Part shown: piece after piece, positions 1,230 through 29,303 of the stretch
Numbering within the stretch: the stretch's first letter is position 1
Layout of the letters: every line of letters begins with the position of its first letter
Source: a virus
Virus record (IMG/VR): IMGVR_UViG_3300044970_001442
Coordinates: 1 to 38,201 of that record
DNA: 38,201 nucleotides
Direction: 5' to 3' (one strand)
Notes under the pieces: generated by a model
The model's database searches: none
What the model was told of the DNA's origin: nothing
What the model saw: only the letters and a program-made list of their open reading frames with translations
Program-made: the position numbers and the translations under genes

Positions 1230-1850
1230 TTATTGATTCTTAATATTATTATAAAGAGTGTCTAGTCTATTTTTGATACCTTCTAATGCCATAGGATTAT
1301 CGCCCCTGTAAGGTTTGTCACTATAGCTATCTTTAGGCTTGTGTAAATCGTCGCCCGTATCTATTGGGAAATTATCTGTGCCCATTGCTACGTCTGGACT
1401 ATTGGCATATTCATCGCCTAACATCGGCTCTTTTTTCATTATGGATAATCCAGGCATTACGATATCATCGTCATCATGTGAATGATCATGATCGTCAGCA
1501 CCTTGCTCTAAATTGCGAAGAATGTTCATTAAATCTCTGATGCCGCCACTACCTGAACCATTCATGCTGACATTCATACTGACATTGTCTTGTTGTTTGC
1601 TCATAGAAGGCATACTCATAGGACCCATGCCGCATTCGTCCATTTCTTGTTGAACTTCGTCTGCGAGCTGATCTAAAGACTCATCTTTTTTATTCATAGC
1701 TTGTTTGATAGCCTTATCTCTTGAACCCATGTATTCATCTTTACCTGATTCAATTTCGCCATCGCCGTCATAGTCTTGTTTTGCTTTTTCTGACTCTTGT
1801 ACTGGCTGATCTAATTCAGCTATGCGAGCCATTAATTCTTGAAAGTTCAT
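1230..1850 (-). CDS. Unknown acidic protein with EF-hand-like loop; possible internal head protein
   Basis: 206 residues, not recognised as a named family. The N-terminus MNFQELMARIAELDQ is a short amphipathic segment with IAE, a possible T4 prohead-protease (gp21) cleavage motif of the form (I/L)-x-E. Residues of about 27-41 (DYDGDGEIESGKDEY) read as an EF-hand/dockerin-like calcium loop, followed by GSRDKAIKQAM. The middle is rich in Met, Ser and Gly, with an Asp/His run (DDHDHSHDDDD) that could bind metal. SD AAGGAAAATAAC precedes the ATG, 1 nt after the stop of the upstream gene. Last gene before a terminator. The head role is inferred from the N-terminal motif and position only. Confidence 0.75.
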   Translation of the reverse strand: MNFQELMARIAELDQPVQESEKAKQDYDGDGEIESGKDEYMGSRDKAIKQAMNKKDESLDQLADEVQQEMDECGMGPMSMPSMSKQQDNVSMNVSMNGSGSGGIRDLMNILRNLEQGADDHDHSHDDDDIVMPGLSIMKKEPMLGDEYANSPDVAMGTDNFPIDTGDDLHKPKDSYSDKPYRGDNPMALEGIKNRLDTLYNNIKNQ

Positions 1851-1851
1851 G

Positions 1852-2478
1852 TTATTTTCCTTTTCTTGGGTCAGGATTACCTTTTTGACCGGTTAATACA
1901 CTTTTAGATGTTTCACTTTTAGCAGATGCTGCTACTTTTTCTTTAGGTGCAGATTTAGCTAAAATTTTGTCATTAACACCTTTGTATTGTGTAGGTTGCG
2001 AATCTTTACTTGCTTTAGATAACTCTTTTAAAAGACTGCTAATTTTTTTATCACCTACTGTATCTTGATAATTTTCTTTTTGATAATCTTGATTTAATAA
2101 TGCTTCTTTTTTATCAGAATTTAAATGCTCAGTGTTTAATTCAATTTCGTCTTCTTCTTTAAGACTTCTGACTCTGATACAACAAGCATCTAGTCCAGTC
2201 TGCTCTGACATATAAGCAGTTAGTACTTGACTAGTAGTTGGATAATCTAGCTCAACATCAAATACAGTCATTTGAGTGTTTTCTAATGTAGGGAAATCTA
2301 ATAATTTAGGCTGAATAGGAGTAGTTTTGCCCTTGTTAAAACTAGAAACTTTGTACTTTTCTAGTGCGGCTTTCATAGTGTCTTCAATGTGCTCGGGAAG
2401 ATCACCCGCAATTTTTATCTTAAAAGGATACTTCTTTTCTTCTAAACTTTCAATTAGATAGTCTTTAAATGATTTCAT
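1852..2478 (-). CDS. Probable internal head protein with T4-like capsid-targeting N-terminus
   Basis: 208 residues, unknown family. The first 11 residues, MKSFKDYLIES, line up position by position with the T4 capsid-targeting sequence MKTYQEFIAEA of internal proteins and Alt, with Glu10-Ser11 at the place of the gp21 cleavage site. In T4 that peptide directs proteins into the prohead core and is then cut off. The middle is mixed alpha/beta with CCIRVRSL; the tail (about 150-208) is Lys/Ser/Ala-rich and basic, as expected of a DNA-associated internal protein. Start chosen at the ATG with AGGA 8 nt upstream and a late promoter at 2497-2504. Sits between the gp16 and gp17 genes. Confidence 0.8.
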   Translation of the reverse strand: MKSFKDYLIESLEEKKYPFKIKIAGDLPEHIEDTMKAALEKYKVSSFNKGKTTPIQPKLLDFPTLENTQMTVFDVELDYPTTSQVLTAYMSEQTGLDACCIRVRSLKEEDEIELNTEHLNSDKKEALLNQDYQKENYQDTVGDKKISSLLKELSKASKDSQPTQYKGVNDKILAKSAPKEKVAASAKSETSKSVLTGQKGNPDPRKGK

Positions 2479-2978: not shown

Positions 2979-2986
2979 TACTTATC
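2979..2986 (-). promoter_or_regulatory. Weak late-promoter-like box before gp16
   Basis: GATAAGTA on the minus strand, 5 nt (AGTAT) from the ATG: the same geometry and spacer as the tube-fold gene at 4854, but with two differences from the AATAAATA box. Confidence 0.3.
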
Positions 2987-3419
2987 TTAGATTTCCATTG
3001 TGAAACAAATCTTGCTCGTTTAGCACTCTAAATTTTATGCCTTGTCTGCCACACCATGCTTGAGCAGCTCTCCATTTGACTTGGTTTTTGGCCCACTGTA
3101 ATTGATTATTGCGATTCTTTCCTGCTTTTTCTAATAATGTTTGACTCTGGGGTTTGACTTCAATTAACTCAGCTTTCATGATACCGTTTTTATCTGCATA
3201 TTGAATAAAAAAGTCAGGCACATATACTGTTTGACGTCCAGTGAACGGATCTTTATAAGGAATTTTTACGGCTTCACTAGCCCATTTTATAATACGAGGA
3301 TCTTTATCACAGAAATTCATGAAATACCACTCCCAACTACTTCTGTAAGTTGGCAGATGGTTCCCTACATATTTGTCAGGATTTTTAATTTGAAATTTGC
3401 CACGTGCCCAGCGACTCAT
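2982..3419 (-). CDS. 4: Head completion protein gp4 (TnsA-like nuclease fold)
   Basis: 145 residues, close to T4 gp4 (also called gp50, 150 residues), which acts on filled heads before tail attachment. The sequence shows a PD-(D/E)xK nuclease pattern as in TnsA: Glu30 in RSSWEWYFM, Asp69 in VYVPDFFI, and Glu87-Val-Lys89 in ELIEVKPQ. The Trp-rich N-terminus (SRWARGKF, SSWEWYF) is typical of this family in marine T4-like phages. The ATG overlaps the stop of the preceding gene as ATGA, implying translational coupling. Catalytic residues look intact, so nuclease activity is plausible but not shown. Confidence 0.88.
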   Translation of the reverse strand: MSRWARGKFQIKNPDKYVGNHLPTYRSSWEWYFMNFCDKDPRIIKWASEAVKIPYKDPFTGRQTVYVPDFFIQYADKNGIMKAELIEVKPQSQTLLEKAGKNRNNQLQWAKNQVKWRAAQAWCGRQGIKFRVLNEQDLFHNGNLR

Positions 3420-10110: not shown

Positions 10111-10464
10111 TTAGACGCCGTATTTGTTACGCTTTGGTTTAGCTACAGGACTTGTTGTGTTCACTATATCAATTTCTGAACTAGGTCCTTTGGCAACTAT
10201 GGTAGTGCTTTTGATGCCTTGGTTTTTAGCAGCTCCATCCACTTTCTTAATTTCAGCATCGGTATACATCCAAACTGTGGGCATATCCTTAGCTGGTCCT
10301 TCTTTAGGTGCAGAATGTTCAGGCTCTCCTGCCATAGCAATACCGAATCTATACATTCCGTAATATTGATCTACATGCAATTGTTTTGCATATGAAGCTG
10401 CTTCCCTAGAAGTTTTAGATAATTTTTTTGCTGCATCTTCAGTAATAATTTCGTATATTTTCAT
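10111..10464 (-). CDS. Small protein with capsid-targeting-like N-terminus
   Basis: 117 residues, unknown. The N-terminus MKIYEIITEDAAKKLSK resembles the T4 capsid-targeting peptide MKTYQEFIAEA (MK, aromatic at 4, acidic, hydrophobic pair, then x-E), one residue shorter, with ITE-D as a possible gp21 cut. The rest has MYRFGIAMAGEPEH, a hydrophilic segment, and a basic C-terminus (KPKRNKYGV). Starts 1 nt after the gp13 stop, so it is co-translated with gp13. A packaged internal protein is one reading; a neck-associated protein is another. Confidence 0.75.
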   Translation of the reverse strand: MKIYEIITEDAAKKLSKTSREAASYAKQLHVDQYYGMYRFGIAMAGEPEHSAPKEGPAKDMPTVWMYTDAEIKKVDGAAKNQGIKSTTIVAKGPSSEIDIVNTTSPVAKPKRNKYGV

Positions 10465-21156: not shown

Positions 21157-21736
21157 CTAAATATGATATTTGCATAGCAATTATATCGGATTTACCAAAA
21201 TTACAAGTTCCATGCCATGCAAAACTTTCCCATGTATATACATCTCCGGCAGTCCAATTTCCTAATAATTCATTTCCTATCTGTATTACTTGTCCTACGT
21301 CCCAGTCATTCATTAAAATTACAGACCTTTTAATCTTCTCAGCGTATTCAATCGTAAGATTTTTTCTATGAACGAATGTAGCATATGTATCAAAGTGCCA
21401 CACTAACATATGCCCTGGAGTAATTTTTATAAAATTATAGCTCAATGTCTTATAAGGAAATTTGTCTAATATAGTTTTTAAATTTTCATTTAATGACGGG
21501 CAGTGTGACATTAAATGCCAAGTACTTTGATCAGGAATTTTCCATTCTTTATGAATTTCTTCTAGGTCACGCTTCATATCAGTAGTAAAACTATCCCACG
21601 GATCGTCATCAGGTACTTCCTTAGTTTGGACAGTTTCTATCCAATCAAAATTTAAATCGTTACTGGTCCATGTACAATCTATTCTAAATTTGACTGCATT
21701 GTATTTTGTTAAATCTTTAAACTTCTCTAAGTCCAT
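21149..21736 (-). CDS. 2OG-Fe(II) oxygenase, AspH-like (2)
   Basis: 195 residues. HxD at His114-Asp116 (PGHMLVWHFDTYATF), distal His175 (FAWHGTCN), Lys182 as possible 2OG anchor. The core KRSVILMNDWDVGQVIQIG and LLGNWTAGDVYTWE matches the 170-residue oxygenase at 18706-19218 strand by strand, so the two are paralogues. Start overlaps the end of the twitch radical SAM gene by 20 nt; AAGG lies 9 nt upstream. Confidence 0.87.
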   Translation of the reverse strand: MDLEKFKDLTKYNAVKFRIDCTWTSNDLNFDWIETVQTKEVPDDDPWDSFTTDMKRDLEEIHKEWKIPDQSTWHLMSHCPSLNENLKTILDKFPYKTLSYNFIKITPGHMLVWHFDTYATFVHRKNLTIEYAEKIKRSVILMNDWDVGQVIQIGNELLGNWTAGDVYTWESFAWHGTCNFGKSDIIAMQISYLDE

Positions 21737-22667
21737 ATAAATGCCTTAAAATATATTCTTTATTTGGAATAGTTATATCATTTAATAATAATGAAAATTG
21801 TGTCTTTTCCATTTCTGATAAATTTACAACATCTAATTTCTTAGGATATGTCAGTATATTGGTGTTCCAAACGTATTGATTTTGATTAATAAAATTGGCT
21901 AGATCTTTAACTCCGTGCCAATTATTGACATGTAATACTGAATTTATCTCTAAGGAAAAACTCGTCGACTTTAATTGTTCTAGGAACTTAATTATGTCAG
22001 ACCATTTACTGCCTTTTCTTACTTTTTCATTTAGGTCTGCAACTCCATCAATACTTACGTAAATTTTAACGCTCTTGAATGCGTTTAAAACTAAAATTTC
22101 TTTCTCGCTCAAAAGAAAAGTTCCATTAGTATAATAAATTACTGATACATTTTCAGGATTAGATATTTCTTTGAGAAAGCGGATATGCTTGTTAGTCATT
22201 AACGGCTCTCCCCCTAAAAATAAAATTTTATCTATACTTTTAGGAAGATTTATAAACTCCGTCGTTGTTAAAATATTAATTTTTTTATTGGTAGGATTTT
22301 TAATGTTAGCCCATGTAGAGCTCCATTCTTCCCAACATCCATCGCATGCCAAGTTACATATATTGTCAAAACCAATTTCTAAAAATTTTAATTCAACTTT
22401 ATTAGTAGAATATTCTTTATTAAATTTTTGTCTTAAACTTTCTTTTCCTTGATTTTCTTCAGTATAACATTTTTCGCATTCTGGAAATCGAACTCCATTT
22501 AAAGAACCTTCTCTAAGTTTATTATATTCTTCAATATGTAAGACAGCACTTACATCTCCCGTAAAGGTAGCTATGGGTTGTTTAAATCGGCAACAAGGAA
22601 AAATACGATTTCCAGGGCGAATGTTAGTATGCACCCAAAATGCTGAACATTTACTCATGTTGGCCAT
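21717..22667 (-). CDS. Radical SAM protein with N-terminal SPASM/twitch-like Cys cluster
   Basis: 316 residues. The radical SAM core has CNLACDGC (Cys104, Cys108, Cys111) for the 4Fe-4S cluster, then LFLGGEPLM (SAM-binding GGE), VIYYTNGTFLL and KIYVSIDGVAD. A further Cys set precedes it: PCCRF (25-26) and CEKC (64, 67), placed N-terminally rather than in the usual C-terminal SPASM position. Such permuted twitch proteins are known in phages and in peptide-modifying enzymes. Start: MANMSKC at 22667, or the internal ATG forming ATGA with the upstream stop 9 nt later. Substrate unknown. Confidence 0.9.
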   Translation of the reverse strand: MANMSKCSAFWVHTNIRPGNRIFPCCRFKQPIATFTGDVSAVLHIEEYNKLREGSLNGVRFPECEKCYTEENQGKESLRQKFNKEYSTNKVELKFLEIGFDNICNLACDGCWEEWSSTWANIKNPTNKKINILTTTEFINLPKSIDKILFLGGEPLMTNKHIRFLKEISNPENVSVIYYTNGTFLLSEKEILVLNAFKSVKIYVSIDGVADLNEKVRKGSKWSDIIKFLEQLKSTSFSLEINSVLHVNNWHGVKDLANFINQNQYVWNTNILTYPKKLDVVNLSEMEKTQFSLLLNDITIPNKEYILRHLYGLREV

Positions 22668-23965: not shown

Positions 23966-25337
23966 TATACTTAAACTTTGAAATATTTTGTATTATACGA
24001 TAATTATGTTCTAAAATAGGTAACATCTTAATATATAGTTCTTTTAATTCGTCTATTGAAAAACTATCAATGTAATCTATAATACGAAATATTTTGATTA
24101 GACGAGATTCGTGATTTTCTTCTTGATCATAACTTTCGTCCCAAAATTCGTCAAATGTTTGTATTCCGTATGATTGCATATATTCTAAAGTGCGTGGAGG
24201 TGCTACTAATATAAAAGGCCGAAACGATTTTATAGCATTTAATGTTTTTTCACTAAACTGCCCCATAGGGTATGCAAATCTTGCTTCCGTTATCACCGAA
24301 CAAAAGCATTGTTGATAACTACTAACTGGCACTGGTAAAGATTCTAATGCTACTTCGCTTTCTATGTTTGTATCTATAGACAAAGAGTTTGGCATTATAT
24401 TAAGTTGATGTCTTATTTTAGAATAAATTTCAGGGCAATCAGTCTTCCATTTGTCTAAATCAAACCATAAATAATTTTCTAATTTACCCCAAATTGGTAT
24501 AGATTTATCTTTCCTGTCGTCAAAAATAACAAATGGCGAATCTTCAATTTTAGTTTGATACGAGCATAATGCAGACATATTTAATAGATAGGCTGCTACT
24601 AACTGACGATAACCGTCATACCTTCTATTTCCGCACCAAAATTTGTATAATATAGTTTCCGATGACGGTGGTGTGCTATAACTGTTATATTCGTATGATG
24701 TAAATCTACTATCCGAATGTCTAAATAGCGAAGTTAGAAATATGTCTTGAGTAGCAAGTGTCATTTCTGGATACGAATTTTTGAAATGTTTTTCGATATT
24801 ATAATCTCCAGTATACACAGTTACTTTTTTTAAGTTGTTTTTAATTATAAATTTTTTTAAATTTTCAAATTCGAAACAATACATTTTAGAAATGTTATCA
24901 TAAGTTGATTCAAATCCAACAACACTTGGTTTAATTATATTAAAAAGCTCTTCTCGAGAAGAATCAAATTTTAAAGAATTTACAAATGGACGTTTACTAT
25001 CGCTGATATCTATAAAAATAGTTTCATAAAGATATATTTCTAAACCGACTGTATTAAGATAGTTTTTGATATCTTCAGAATACATAATTTTGTCTAAGTG
25101 CGGCCAGCTTCCGCAGGCTGTAATAATTAAATAAGGAACATTATAATTTTTTAAAAAAGAATCAGAGTAATAATCTTTATAATAATCAAAAAACGTATAC
25201 TTGGGGTACCTATGATTATTTGATTCAGATAAAAATTTTCCGTCATGAAATATAATACGGTTTTCTCGGTCAGGTAATGACAAATTTTCGTATACGATTC
25301 CAAAACAACTTTCTTCTTTTGTATCAAATATTTTCAT
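23958..25337 (-). CDS. Glycosyltransferase-like protein, copy 1
   Basis: 459 residues, paralogue of the next gene and of similar domain order: an N-terminal alpha/beta half (ITACGSWPHLDK, LYETIFIDI, VTVYTGDYNIEKHF) and a C-terminal half with FSEKTLNAIKSFRPFILVAP and WDESYDQEENHESRLIKIF. In GT-B enzymes a similar EKT-P-F segment contacts the sugar nucleotide. Two nonidentical copies in tandem suggest either a heterodimer or two different acceptors. ATG lies inside the last codons of radical SAM 4 (14 nt overlap). Confidence is high that it is a gene, moderate for function. Confidence 0.65.
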   Translation of the reverse strand: MKIFDTKEESCFGIVYENLSLPDRENRIIFHDGKFLSESNNHRYPKYTFFDYYKDYYSDSFLKNYNVPYLIITACGSWPHLDKIMYSEDIKNYLNTVGLEIYLYETIFIDISDSKRPFVNSLKFDSSREELFNIIKPSVVGFESTYDNISKMYCFEFENLKKFIIKNNLKKVTVYTGDYNIEKHFKNSYPEMTLATQDIFLTSLFRHSDSRFTSYEYNSYSTPPSSETILYKFWCGNRRYDGYRQLVAAYLLNMSALCSYQTKIEDSPFVIFDDRKDKSIPIWGKLENYLWFDLDKWKTDCPEIYSKIRHQLNIMPNSLSIDTNIESEVALESLPVPVSSYQQCFCSVITEARFAYPMGQFSEKTLNAIKSFRPFILVAPPRTLEYMQSYGIQTFDEFWDESYDQEENHESRLIKIFRIIDYIDSFSIDELKELYIKMLPILEHNYRIIQNISKFKYNG

Positions 25338-26238
25338 TTTTTATTGCGATAACATTTTCTTTAGAATGTTTTATTGAAAAAAGTTTATTGTTATTACACA
25401 TATCGCAAAGATCAATGTGTTTATTAGAAGTTTCTACAAAGTGTTTTAATTCAGTTACAGTAGGATTTTTTAAATTAAGTGCTTTATAATTTAAATATTT
25501 TGACCAGTCGTTATCGTCGAGTTGATTTTTTATTTTTAAAATTTTAGGAAGAATTGCAAACCACGAACACTTGTATAATTTAGATTCGTATAGTAAATGA
25601 CAATTTGGCATCGAACATCCATTTTTATAAGATCCTTCGGGGTCATTTGTTGCAAAAGGTTTTATTTTATTTTCATTATTTGTATAATAACAGCTATAAA
25701 AATATTCTGCGTCTGCTATTCTAACATTGAATGTGCTAGAAGAATATAATTCTACACTGTCTTGAACTACACCCCATTTAATTGTACTCTTTTTATTCAT
25801 ATGATTAGTTTCGAGGAATTTCTCTAGTGTTTTATGAAATTTCTTAGCTATGATGTCGTCTGAGAACAATTTAAAATGATTGGTGATATCAATCACGCAA
25901 GGGTGAAAAGTTTTGCAAAATTCTATTAGTTTATTCTGAAATTTATCTAGCAGTAGTCCGTTTGTACAGATTCCGATAGTGCTATTAGGAAATTTTATTC
26001 TTATATGTTCGACAATCTTTTCTATAGAATCCCAATATAAAAATGCTTCTCCTCCCATCAGATCAAACTCATTTACATCGGCATAATTGGAAAGATCATC
26101 GATACTTTCAAATATCGAATCTAATGTTGGATCGTGCTCGTAATTTTTTATAATGTCTGACGCCGAAGTGCATCCATTACAGGATAAATTGCATCGATGT
26201 CCATAAAAAATTTCCACCATTGGCAGTGATATTTTCAT
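25324..26238 (-). CDS. Radical SAM enzyme 4, SPASM-like
   Basis: 304 residues. CNLSCNGC at Cys16, Cys20, Cys23, then DLMGGEAFLYWDS and IGICTNGLLL. C-terminal Cys residues CSMPNC, LYKCSWFA and CDMC are arranged like a SPASM/twitch auxiliary cluster. More diverged than enzymes 1-3 but the same plan (cluster spacing, GGE, TNG, C...C...YKC...CxxC). TAATG links it to the upstream stop. Substrate unknown; family members make carbon-carbon, thioether or epimerised bonds in peptides, or modify small molecules. Confidence 0.9.
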   Translation of the reverse strand: MKISLPMVEIFYGHRCNLSCNGCTSASDIIKNYEHDPTLDSIFESIDDLSNYADVNEFDLMGGEAFLYWDSIEKIVEHIRIKFPNSTIGICTNGLLLDKFQNKLIEFCKTFHPCVIDITNHFKLFSDDIIAKKFHKTLEKFLETNHMNKKSTIKWGVVQDSVELYSSSTFNVRIADAEYFYSCYYTNNENKIKPFATNDPEGSYKNGCSMPNCHLLYESKLYKCSWFAILPKILKIKNQLDDNDWSKYLNYKALNLKNPTVTELKHFVETSNKHIDLCDMCNNNKLFSIKHSKENVIAIKNENI

Positions 26239-27095
26239 TAAAACTTTACCTTACTTTTTGACAATGGCCAAATTGGCTTAATAATTTTTCTTTCTGCACA
26301 TAGTTGACATTGTTTTATATAAGTTTGTATTTCATTAAAAAATTGTACCAGTTTATCTTCCGAATCAAATGGATCAGCGGGCACATATGAATTTAAAAGG
26401 TCTGCTCCTTCTTGTTCAAATTGAAATTGATTTGTCAGATCTGAAGCGATTGCGGTCAAATAGCATTTATATATTTTACCTTTCATAAAAAAGTGCGATG
26501 GTCCACATTCTTGCATACAGAGGTCGTGTGCTTTAACTGGATCACTTCTTCTAAAGAAGGTTATTTTATTTTCTATTTTTTCTGTTGATGCTTTAAAAAA
26601 AACATAAGTGTTATATAGTTTTATTACATTTCGATCATTTAAAATATAATTTGTTACTGATCCATTGACAACTTTAGTTGCATTAATGAGGGCGGATATC
26701 TTGTTTATAGATAGTTCTATGCTATTTCTTAATGCAGGATCATGTACACATACATCAAAAGAAAATCCTTTGTTAATTATTTCTATAGCAAGGTCAATAT
26801 TATTCTGAATGTACGTTCCATTGGTGCTTATTCTAAAATTTTTAGTAGAAGTAAAGTATTTCGAAACTTGATTGACCCAATCAATTAATTTTGGATTTGC
26901 AAAAGGTTCGCCTCCTATTAAATTTATAGTATCTACATCTAACTTCTTACTCCATTCTATATAATAATCTTCATAATCTTTCCAAAATAAATGACCCTTA
27001 AAATTTCTATTGTTATAAGAATCACAATTTTCACATGTTAAATTACATACATGTGTTACATGAAAAAACATTTCTTTTAAGTAAATTTTTTTCAT
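26238..27095 (-). CDS. Radical SAM enzyme 3, SPASM-like
   Basis: 285 residues. CNLTCENC at Cys17, Cys21, Cys24; NLIGGEPFANPKLIDW; RISTNGTYI; VCVHDPALRNSIE. C-terminal auxiliary set: LCMQECGPSHFF, IYKCYLTA, CQLC. Ends in PIWPLSKSKVKF, a tail shared with enzymes 1 and 2. Start forms ATGA with the stop of enzyme 2. Confidence 0.92.
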   Translation of the reverse strand: MKKIYLKEMFFHVTHVCNLTCENCDSYNNRNFKGHLFWKDYEDYYIEWSKKLDVDTINLIGGEPFANPKLIDWVNQVSKYFTSTKNFRISTNGTYIQNNIDLAIEIINKGFSFDVCVHDPALRNSIELSINKISALINATKVVNGSVTNYILNDRNVIKLYNTYVFFKASTEKIENKITFFRRSDPVKAHDLCMQECGPSHFFMKGKIYKCYLTAIASDLTNQFQFEQEGADLLNSYVPADPFDSEDKLVQFFNEIQTYIKQCQLCAERKIIKPIWPLSKSKVKF

Positions 27096-27952
27096 ACTAA
27101 GTTAGTTTTCAATTTAGATAATGGCCATATTTGTTTGACTGTGTTTGTCTCTGTACATAATCTACATTGTTCTATAGGATTTGGTAAATTTTCTATCCAT
27201 TCTTTAATAATATGTTCTTCGTCGAATGGTGAACACGATTTGTATTTTAATAATAATTCTTTTGCTCGAGGTTCGACCTCGAATTGATTACATAGTGGTT
27301 TTGAAACTGCGGTTAAAAAACATTTATATAATCTTCCTTCCATAAATGTGTAACAATATCCACACTCTCCATGAGATTTAGATGGATCACTATCATGCAT
27401 ATAGATTATATTATTTTTTAAGCTACGAAGACTTTTTTTAGAAAACACATATTTTTTATCTAATTTTGCTATTTTTCGAGAGCCTATGTAAAAAATATCA
27501 CAATACTCACTACTTTTTTCTTTTCTGATATTTTTAAAAATTGAAAATATTTCTTTTAAATTTTCTTCTATTTCATGAAATAAGCTAGGATCGTGTACAT
27601 TAATGTCTAGCCATATATTTTGTCTTAATAACTCTTGACATTCTTTAATTTTGTGTTTTAGATATGTACCATTAGTTGCAATGTCAATTTCTTTAAGATT
27701 GGGCCATAAGGATTTTATTGACATAGTCCAATCAATTAATTTTGGATTTGTAAATGGCTCGCCGCCTATAATAGTTAAACTGTTCAGTTCTAGTTTTTTA
27801 CTCCACTTTTTAAAATATGCTTCGTAATCTTTGAAATAATAATGCCCTTTAAATTTTAAATTATTATAAGTAATACAATTTTCACATGTCAGATTACACA
27901 CATTTGTTATGTATATTTGAACGTTTTCATCTAAACGATACATTGTTGTCAT
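27092..27952 (-). CDS. Radical SAM enzyme 2, SPASM-like
   Basis: 286 residues. CNLTCENC at Cys19, Cys23, Cys26; TIIGGEPFTNPKLIDW; DIATNGTYL; INVHDPSLFHEIE. Auxiliary Cys: GECGYCYTF, LYKCFLTA, CRLC; C-terminal QIWPLSKLK. It is the most diverged of the three paralogues in its middle. Start forms ATGA with the stop of enzyme 1. Confidence 0.92.
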   Translation of the reverse strand: MTTMYRLDENVQIYITNVCNLTCENCITYNNLKFKGHYYFKDYEAYFKKWSKKLELNSLTIIGGEPFTNPKLIDWTMSIKSLWPNLKEIDIATNGTYLKHKIKECQELLRQNIWLDINVHDPSLFHEIEENLKEIFSIFKNIRKEKSSEYCDIFYIGSRKIAKLDKKYVFSKKSLRSLKNNIIYMHDSDPSKSHGECGYCYTFMEGRLYKCFLTAVSKPLCNQFEVEPRAKELLLKYKSCSPFDEEHIIKEWIENLPNPIEQCRLCTETNTVKQIWPLSKLKTNLV

Positions 27953-28809
27953 AACTCAATCTTCTTTTTAGCCAATGGCCATATCGGTACTATTATTTCT
28001 TTTTCTGGACAAAGTTGACAAGCATCGATATGATTGTCTAACTCCCTAAAAAATCTGTCTAGATTTTCTGTTGTATCAAAAGGATCTGCAGAATTATATT
28101 TTTTTAGCAAATTAATACCGCGTGTTTCGATTTTAAATTGTGACATTAAGTCTTTAGAAATAGCAGTAAAACTACATTTATATATTTTTCCTTTGTGAAA
28201 AACTACGTTAGGAACGCATGTACTCATGCAATATGTATGTGCTTTAACAGGGTCACTTCTTCTAAAAAATGTTGTTTTATTTTCTATTTTATACATAGAA
28301 TTTGAGCGGAATACAGTGGCTTCCCAAATTCTTGCTATCTTTTTACCGTTCGCTTCAAAGATTATCGTTGTATTTGTTTTATATTTTTTAAAGTTAAAAA
28401 CTGATAAAATATTTTCTAAAGTTTCTTCTATCTCATTTCTAAATGACGGATCGTGAATACTAATATCTAACCAGAATCCTTGTTTTATAATTTCTCTTGA
28501 TAAATCTATATTGTGTTTTAAGTATGTGCCATTTGTGCTTATATTAAAATTTTCTACATCTTTAAAATGTGTTTTTAATGATTCAACCCATGTCATTAAA
28601 TCAGGATTAGTATATGGTTCGCCGCCAAAGATGTTAACTTCATTTAATCGAATTTTTTTTGACCATTCGATATACATGTCTGCGTGATCTTTCCAATAAA
28701 AATGATTTTTAAAATTTCTGTTACTATATACATCACAATTATTACACGTCAAATTACAAACATTTGTGATATGGAACACACCTTGTGTTCTGAAATATTT
28801 TTTTATCAT
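27949..28809 (-). CDS. Radical SAM enzyme 1, SPASM-like
   Basis: 286 residues from the ATG at 28809, chosen because it forms ATGA with the stop of the upstream gene; a start 15 nt earlier would overlap it further. CNLTCNNC at Cys18, Cys22, Cys25; NIFGGEPYTNPDLMTW; NISTNGTYL; ISIHDPSFRNEIE. Auxiliary Cys: CMSTCVPN, IYKCSFTA, CQLC; ends PIWPLAKKKIEL. Very close to enzyme 3 (shared FFRRSDPVKAH), so the pair probably arose by recent duplication. Confidence 0.92.
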   Translation of the reverse strand: MIKKYFRTQGVFHITNVCNLTCNNCDVYSNRNFKNHFYWKDHADMYIEWSKKIRLNEVNIFGGEPYTNPDLMTWVESLKTHFKDVENFNISTNGTYLKHNIDLSREIIKQGFWLDISIHDPSFRNEIEETLENILSVFNFKKYKTNTTIIFEANGKKIARIWEATVFRSNSMYKIENKTTFFRRSDPVKAHTYCMSTCVPNVVFHKGKIYKCSFTAISKDLMSQFKIETRGINLLKKYNSADPFDTTENLDRFFRELDNHIDACQLCPEKEIIVPIWPLAKKKIEL

Positions 28810-29303
28810 TTTTTGTAAAAACAAAAAATAGGAGAATCGGCATATGTTGCATTTATTTTTACAGAGTTTCCTGCCGCAATTCTTGTCGATGATAATTGAT
28901 TTATAGAGATATCATTTATTGTTATTCCTGGAATCAAAGGTATAATTATTTTTTCGTTGTCGTCTATGTCTAATTTTTTTTCTGTTGTTACAGTTATTAT
29001 ATCTGCTTCATATATGCTCTCGTCACTCGCTGCAAATGTAACTGCATAAAAATCTTCGGCGCCGGCTGTCCACTTGGTATCAATTCCTTTAATTGGTCTA
29101 AGGTCTGCTAAAACGTCTACAAAAATATCATAATTTCCTTCATACCCATTCATTGTATATTCTATTTTAACATTACCTGCTAATAAGTATAACCATTGTA
29201 TTTCCTGTCTTTCTCCAGAATTTAAATATCCTGTTACTGTGTTTGCTGTTCCATGTATAAAAGAAACAGTGAAATCTCTAGCATGTTTTTTTGATAGTTT
29301 CAT
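28806..29303 (-). CDS. Cupin-like beta protein A, first gene of the modification operon
   Basis: 165 residues, beta-rich. WLYLLAGNVKIEY and a later IAAGNSVKI are the kind of G-turns seen in cupin barrels, but no His-rich metal site is evident. It is a paralogue of the neighbouring protein B (29339-29842): both have W-x-Y-(L/I)-L-x-G-x-x-x-I-E, D-L-R, an I-x-P-L segment and G-x-S-V-K. Its stop overlaps the start of radical SAM enzyme 1. Late promoter at 29330-29337; the leader of about 20 nt has no clear SD. Function not known: enzyme, accessory or protein substrate of the operon. Confidence 0.75.
   Translation of the reverse strand: MKLSKKHARDFTVSFIHGTANTVTGYLNSGERQEIQWLYLLAGNVKIEYTMNGYEGNYDIFVDVLADLRPIKGIDTKWTAGAEDFYAVTFAASDESIYEADIITVTTEKKLDIDDNEKIIIPLIPGITINDISINQLSSTRIAAGNSVKINATYADSPIFCFYKK

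Follow-up and report, generated by a model that had tools for sequence, protein, structure and literature searches.

Gene neighbourhood and the N-terminus of the 208-residue protein

The window, a record of 38 kb (38,201 nucleotides), derives from an uncultivated phage, a T4-related myovirus whose relatives include giant phages. A minus-strand run begins with genes for a gp13-like neck protein, a 117-residue protein, a dNMP kinase, the tail sheath and the tube. It continues with genes for a T4 gp4-like head-closure protein (2982-3419; phrog_218, E 9.6e-43), a terminase small-subunit-like protein (2500-2973; phrog_445, E 1.1e-4; phrog_16202, E 6e-15) that is the upstream neighbour of a 208-residue protein, and a 206-residue protein. 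The gp17-like large terminase comes last; only its beginning is present (1-1171), cut by the window end, and it was recognised from its MLPRQMGKTT Walker A motif by eye and from synteny with relatives. This gene order was largely kept in 121Q, PA5oct, Vibrio 2.275.O and IMG/VR relatives. Neither a protease gene nor a capsid gene was present within the 38 kb fragment. It was also noted that the tail-side half of the window holds several radical-SAM-like frames (25324-28824 and 21717-22667), identified by eye from CxxxCxxC-type motifs.

The 208-residue protein is encoded at 2478-1852 on the minus strand, with AGGA upstream of its ATG, and its N-terminus translates as MKSFKDYLIESLEEKK. Codons 1-10 (MKSFKDYLIE) occupy exactly 2478-2449, or 2478 to 2446 with S11, and were taken from the translation and homologue conservation as a capsid-targeting-like propeptide with a predicted cut after E10. 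The predicted mature part (1852-2448) is described from the structural model, a match to phrog_14802 and the homologues. MKSFKDYLIE-S aligns gap-free to MKTYQEFIAE-A, the N-terminus of both ipII and ipIII in the T4 record, and scored 27 against MKTYQEFIAEA (BLOSUM62, ungapped). This was the top score among the 42 window proteins, the 117-residue protein being second with 19. The preliminary description had pointed out this resemblance, which stands with identical or positive residues at 10 of 11 positions; its wording that all substitutions were similar was a slight overstatement, because I/A at position 9 scores -1. Across nine phage genomes, only 2 of 13,876 internal methionines reached 27 or more, so about 0.006 chance matches would be expected per 42 genes. 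The resemblance is real, and stronger than could be seen in the preliminary description.

A tag on the neighbouring 206-residue protein (MNFQELMARIAELDQPVQES; 1230-1850, minus strand) is doubtful. Its N-terminus, MARIAE-L, does contain the IAE earlier put forward as a tag, yet relatives differ there (MARMAE, SRLNTL, RKIEAL), and IAE was rejected as a conserved cleavage site, which leaves the suggestion weak. What the relatives have in common is V[QSK]E-[SEA] around residue 20, and this conserved V-x-E-[SEA] is a possible alternative site. The protein also has DYDGDGEIESGKDEYMGSRDKAIK, an acidic EF-hand-like motif, and similar EF-hand-like stretches were encountered in cyanophage and marine virus records.

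Conservation of the tag and its predicted cleavage site

A homologue search with a six-member alignment confirmed 334 relatives, and the best 80 of these 334, together with copies from other contigs, gave 51 distinct homologues. Hydrophobic or aromatic residues at positions 4 and 7, within about ten N-terminal residues as in the T4-type signal, were found in all of them, position 4 being F, Y or L and Y7 being invariant (51/51). K2 and E10 were likewise invariant, and position 8 was always L or I. Serine was found at position 11 in 46 homologues, asparagine in four and valine in one, so that all 51 carry [LI]-x-E with a small residue next to it, as at a gp21-type site; the site was lost in PA5oct, and 121Q has K11. 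Positions 5 and 9 were variable, with nine different residues each. Among the 70 four-position subsets of positions 3-10, the set {4,7,8,10} was the most conserved. Mutational work on T4 IPIII has shown that targeting depends on residues 4 and 7 and processing on residues 8 and 10, with Asp at position 10 blocking processing and not targeting (PMC9026906), and the four most conserved homologue positions coincide with these determinants. One of the two homologue search patterns spanned residues 10-17 and overlapped the tag site; nine homologues that matched only the other pattern (residues 19-26) still keep [LI]8, E10 and S/N11.

The PF03420 prohead protease was found in the related contigs G001-G004, G006, G007, G016 and G017 and in PA5oct, 121Q and 2.275.O, showing that close relatives encode a gp21-family protease, and its gene lies near the capsid gene. 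No PF03420 match was obtained in phiKZ. Seven related contigs, of which two are near-identical, encode major capsid proteins with a common motif, KYL[AS]E-SA, ahead of the conserved mature start. The motif is predicted to end the capsid-protein propeptide, by analogy with the T4 gp23 site FLTE-A. The P4-P1' residues of this site (Y-L-x-E-S) are those of the 208-residue tag; elsewhere the capsid-protein site reads LME-S (Vibrio 2.275.O), LVE-N (PA5oct) or LTE-S (121Q). The E-S cleavage pair proposed earlier is supported by its conservation, by the capsid-protein site, by the gp21-type protease of relatives and by recurrence of the tag on other proteins. These comparisons support the tag as a putative T4-type capsid-targeting sequence with an E10-S11 pair.

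The 117-residue protein and other tagged proteins

The 117-residue protein starts at 10464 with MKIYEIITE-D, and the alignment of its homologues places a tag one residue shorter at 10438-10464 (minus strand), with a predicted cut after E9. The earlier reading of this N-terminus as MKIYEIITE-D was confirmed, and E9 is invariant in 23 homologues. These aligned members also keep K2 and most of the tail SPVAKPKRNKYGV, which ends a body (10111-10437) with a variable centre. At least two copies of the gene were found in 17 of 54 contigs. The 117-type domain also lies at the C-terminus of 14 larger proteins, several of them cytidylyltransferase-like, with N-termini such as MKLRELFES; the tag is doubtful on some of these fusion proteins because their starts (MLLRELFV, MLLREFLN) are without a site. 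It was noted that the domain with the tail KPKRNKYG[VI] is fused C-terminally in L067, L072, L076, L078, L080, L045 and others. The model of the 117-residue protein (mean pLDDT 57) was too poor for use, and a Pfam search with the 208-, 206- and 117-residue proteins found no domain. Duplicated, variable and with a conserved tag, the 117-residue protein resembles the T4 internal proteins and is plausibly the better cargo candidate.

We then assessed N-termini more widely with the pattern M[KR]x(2,3)[DE]hhxE, a regular expression written after the candidates had been seen, with gene starts outside annotated records taken from a simple script caller. It matched 79 of 1935 non-redundant N-termini, compared to 6 of 9102 internal methionines and 0.63 in shuffles. 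The majority of these tagged proteins belong to the two queried families (208- and 117-type); after clustering, ten families had a tagged member against 0.68 expected. Three contigs of 330-383 kb (G001, G002 and G017) held 14 tagged proteins against about 0.44 expected, and eight matches in at least seven families remained, against 0.44, once the 208- and 117-type families were set aside, so that the tag is also found on otherwise unrelated proteins. The pattern occurred in 3 of 257 proteins in T4 and in 1 of 356 in phiKZ, an outgroup without a PF03420 match. The strict pattern misses cyanophage look-alikes such as MKSFKQFLEEA in P-SSM2, so the numbers given for other T4-like phages are minima. 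Besides MKSFKQFLEEA, the P-SSM2 N-termini (L277-L289) include MKSFSQFLTET and MKSLSQFIIET, likewise close to the T4 tag. PA5oct EST35_0150 (MKINDIITE-G) lies in the head-gene cluster and is annotated ESI-MS/MS. Similar tags on several unrelated proteins of relatives point to a putative shared loading signal.

A tagged protein of 328-440 residues was seen near the portal and protease genes of several relatives (G017:92342-93328; G006:34307-35383; G003:67455-68582; G002:174604-175926), with hydrophobic stretches in some copies. Separately, small tagged proteins were found to resemble the capsid protein across the cleavage site, with examples in T4 gp61.1 (NC_000866 18966-19130; L164), G017 (174115-174372; L262:14115-14372), G002 (272732-272971) and L053 (8139-8396). 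Within the T4 proteome, gp61.1 (KTFKEFIKE-DMVAGDSGGN...TTSGAVVNKGP) matches gp23 57-93 best (score 82), and its post-tag score against gp23, 69, was reached by 0 of 1000 shuffles. The 85-residue G017 protein aligns with its own capsid protein as ETATAGATSAGNIAS / ESATGGATSAGNVAT (0 of 1000 shuffles); for the small G002 protein, the capsid protein ranked only third among the matches. One tentative possibility is that in these jumbo phages the tag acts as a general loading code for changing cargo, accompanied by small capsid-site mimics like T4 gp61.1. Such cargo would include the cytidylyltransferase-like enzymes joined to the 117-type domain, and the small proteins, copying the capsid cleavage site and mature N-terminal arm, would perhaps tune protease activity or shell assembly.

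Predicted role of the 208-residue protein

The 208-residue protein matches phrog_14802, 'virion structural protein', over residues 5-158 (E 2.9e-6), and its homologues include PA5oct EST35_0202 (tblastn E 3e-10), 121Q 557 and Vibrio 2.275.O 386. EST35_0202 is annotated as an ESI-MS/MS structural protein; the virion labels for PA5oct, 121Q and PBECO4 are record annotations. The model, of moderate confidence (mean pLDDT 62, core 70-78), places a weak helix at residues 4-13, carrying the tag, ahead of a folded domain of about residues 17-105, a beta-alpha-beta-beta-alpha-beta arrangement that is predicted to be ferredoxin-like; the C-terminal half is of low confidence. Searches of solved structures returned general ferredoxin-like folds (ribosomal S6, PII, CutA; best E 1.1e-3), which are uninformative about function. 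In relatives the gene invariably lies between the small and large terminase genes, and it is single-copy, also in distant jumbo phages. This conservation and constant position make a role in head building likelier than one as a host effector and speak against the gene being dispensable; the conserved protein probably belongs to the head interior or the packaging vertex.

T4 IPI and Alt are packaged effectors that are ejected with the DNA and act on the host. The preliminary description had suggested the same for its tagged proteins; for the 208-residue protein, the capsid-targeting part of that suggestion agrees with our results, and the effector part does not fit a syntenic, widely conserved gene with the marks of a core head protein. 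A tagged, packaged effector ejected with the DNA to act on the host overlaps our explanation as regards the tag, whose class is that of the ejected T4 internal proteins (PMC3012670, PMC9026906). We regard it as unlikely, since the gene is so constant in distant jumbo phages, whereas internal proteins are variable and accessory, and since no host-target domain was found in the Pfam and solved-structure searches.

The tag might alternatively stay uncut and serve in assembly as a helix by which a minor structural protein docks, perhaps at the portal or packaging vertex, the likeness to T4 reflecting core docking only. The invariant gene location would suit this, as would the PA5oct homologue (MKSFRDYYDAS), which keeps F4 and Y7, has lost L8 and E10, and is still annotated as a virion protein; cleavage therefore appears unneeded for incorporation across the family, a pattern that fits targeting without cutting, as in the T4 Asp10 mutant. 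Across the 51 homologues, however, positions 8, 10 and 11 are fixed and only position 9 between them varies freely, as an [LI]-x-E-[S] protease site would lead one to expect, and the capsid-protein site has the same P4-P1', which makes the uncut helix quite improbable. It is very improbable that the resemblance arose by chance or from the composition of lysine-rich amphipathic N-termini: the peptide is short and the 117-residue tag alone scores just 19 against T4, but rates at internal methionines and in shuffles are tens of times lower and the conservation is position-specific.

From the sequence comparisons, we consider residues 1-10 likely to be a T4-type capsid-targeting propeptide, carried by a probable conserved head protein, with the 117-residue protein as plausible cargo. 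Targeting, cleavage, location and any ejection are what we infer here. Residues 4 and 7 of the amphipathic tag helix would dock the protein on the scaffold core as it assembles, a gp21-type protease would cut after E10 during head maturation, and the mature protein, starting at S11, would stay inside the head; the 117-residue protein would use the one-residue-shorter form of the same signal.

The tag shares with that of T4 IPII and IPIII its length of ten residues, K2, aromatic residues at 4 and 7, [LI]8, a free position 9, E10 and a small residue at 11, and the prohead protease of relatives belongs to the same Pfam family as that of T4. It differs in that it sits on a conserved syntenic protein, has mostly Ser at P1' and has a predicted role in targeting and cleavage. 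T4 gp24 (MAKINELLRE-S) and Alt (MELITELFDE), whose N-termini were confirmed in the T4 record, also carry short N-terminal propeptides, which are removed by gp21; gp24 is a shell protein, and the likeness is drawn on the propeptides. The members of phrog_14802 (121Q gp557, PBECO4 gp016, PA5oct EST35_0202) are homologous to the 208-residue protein and have the same gene neighbourhood, but K follows E10 in 121Q, and L8 and E10 are missing in PA5oct. Ejection proteins of SPN3US and phiKZ-like phages are likewise jumbo-phage head proteins with protease-removed N-termini (here predicted), but their propeptides are long, mostly of more than 100 residues (PMC5694885), and phiKZ gave no PF03420 match.

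No prior report of the tag in this phage group was found in the open-access literature searched, which is weak evidence of novelty. The tag provides a sequence rule, tied to residues already tested in T4, for predicting the head-carried proteins of uncultivated T4-related giant phages, many of which are of unknown function, and it could serve for loading foreign proteins into large capsids.
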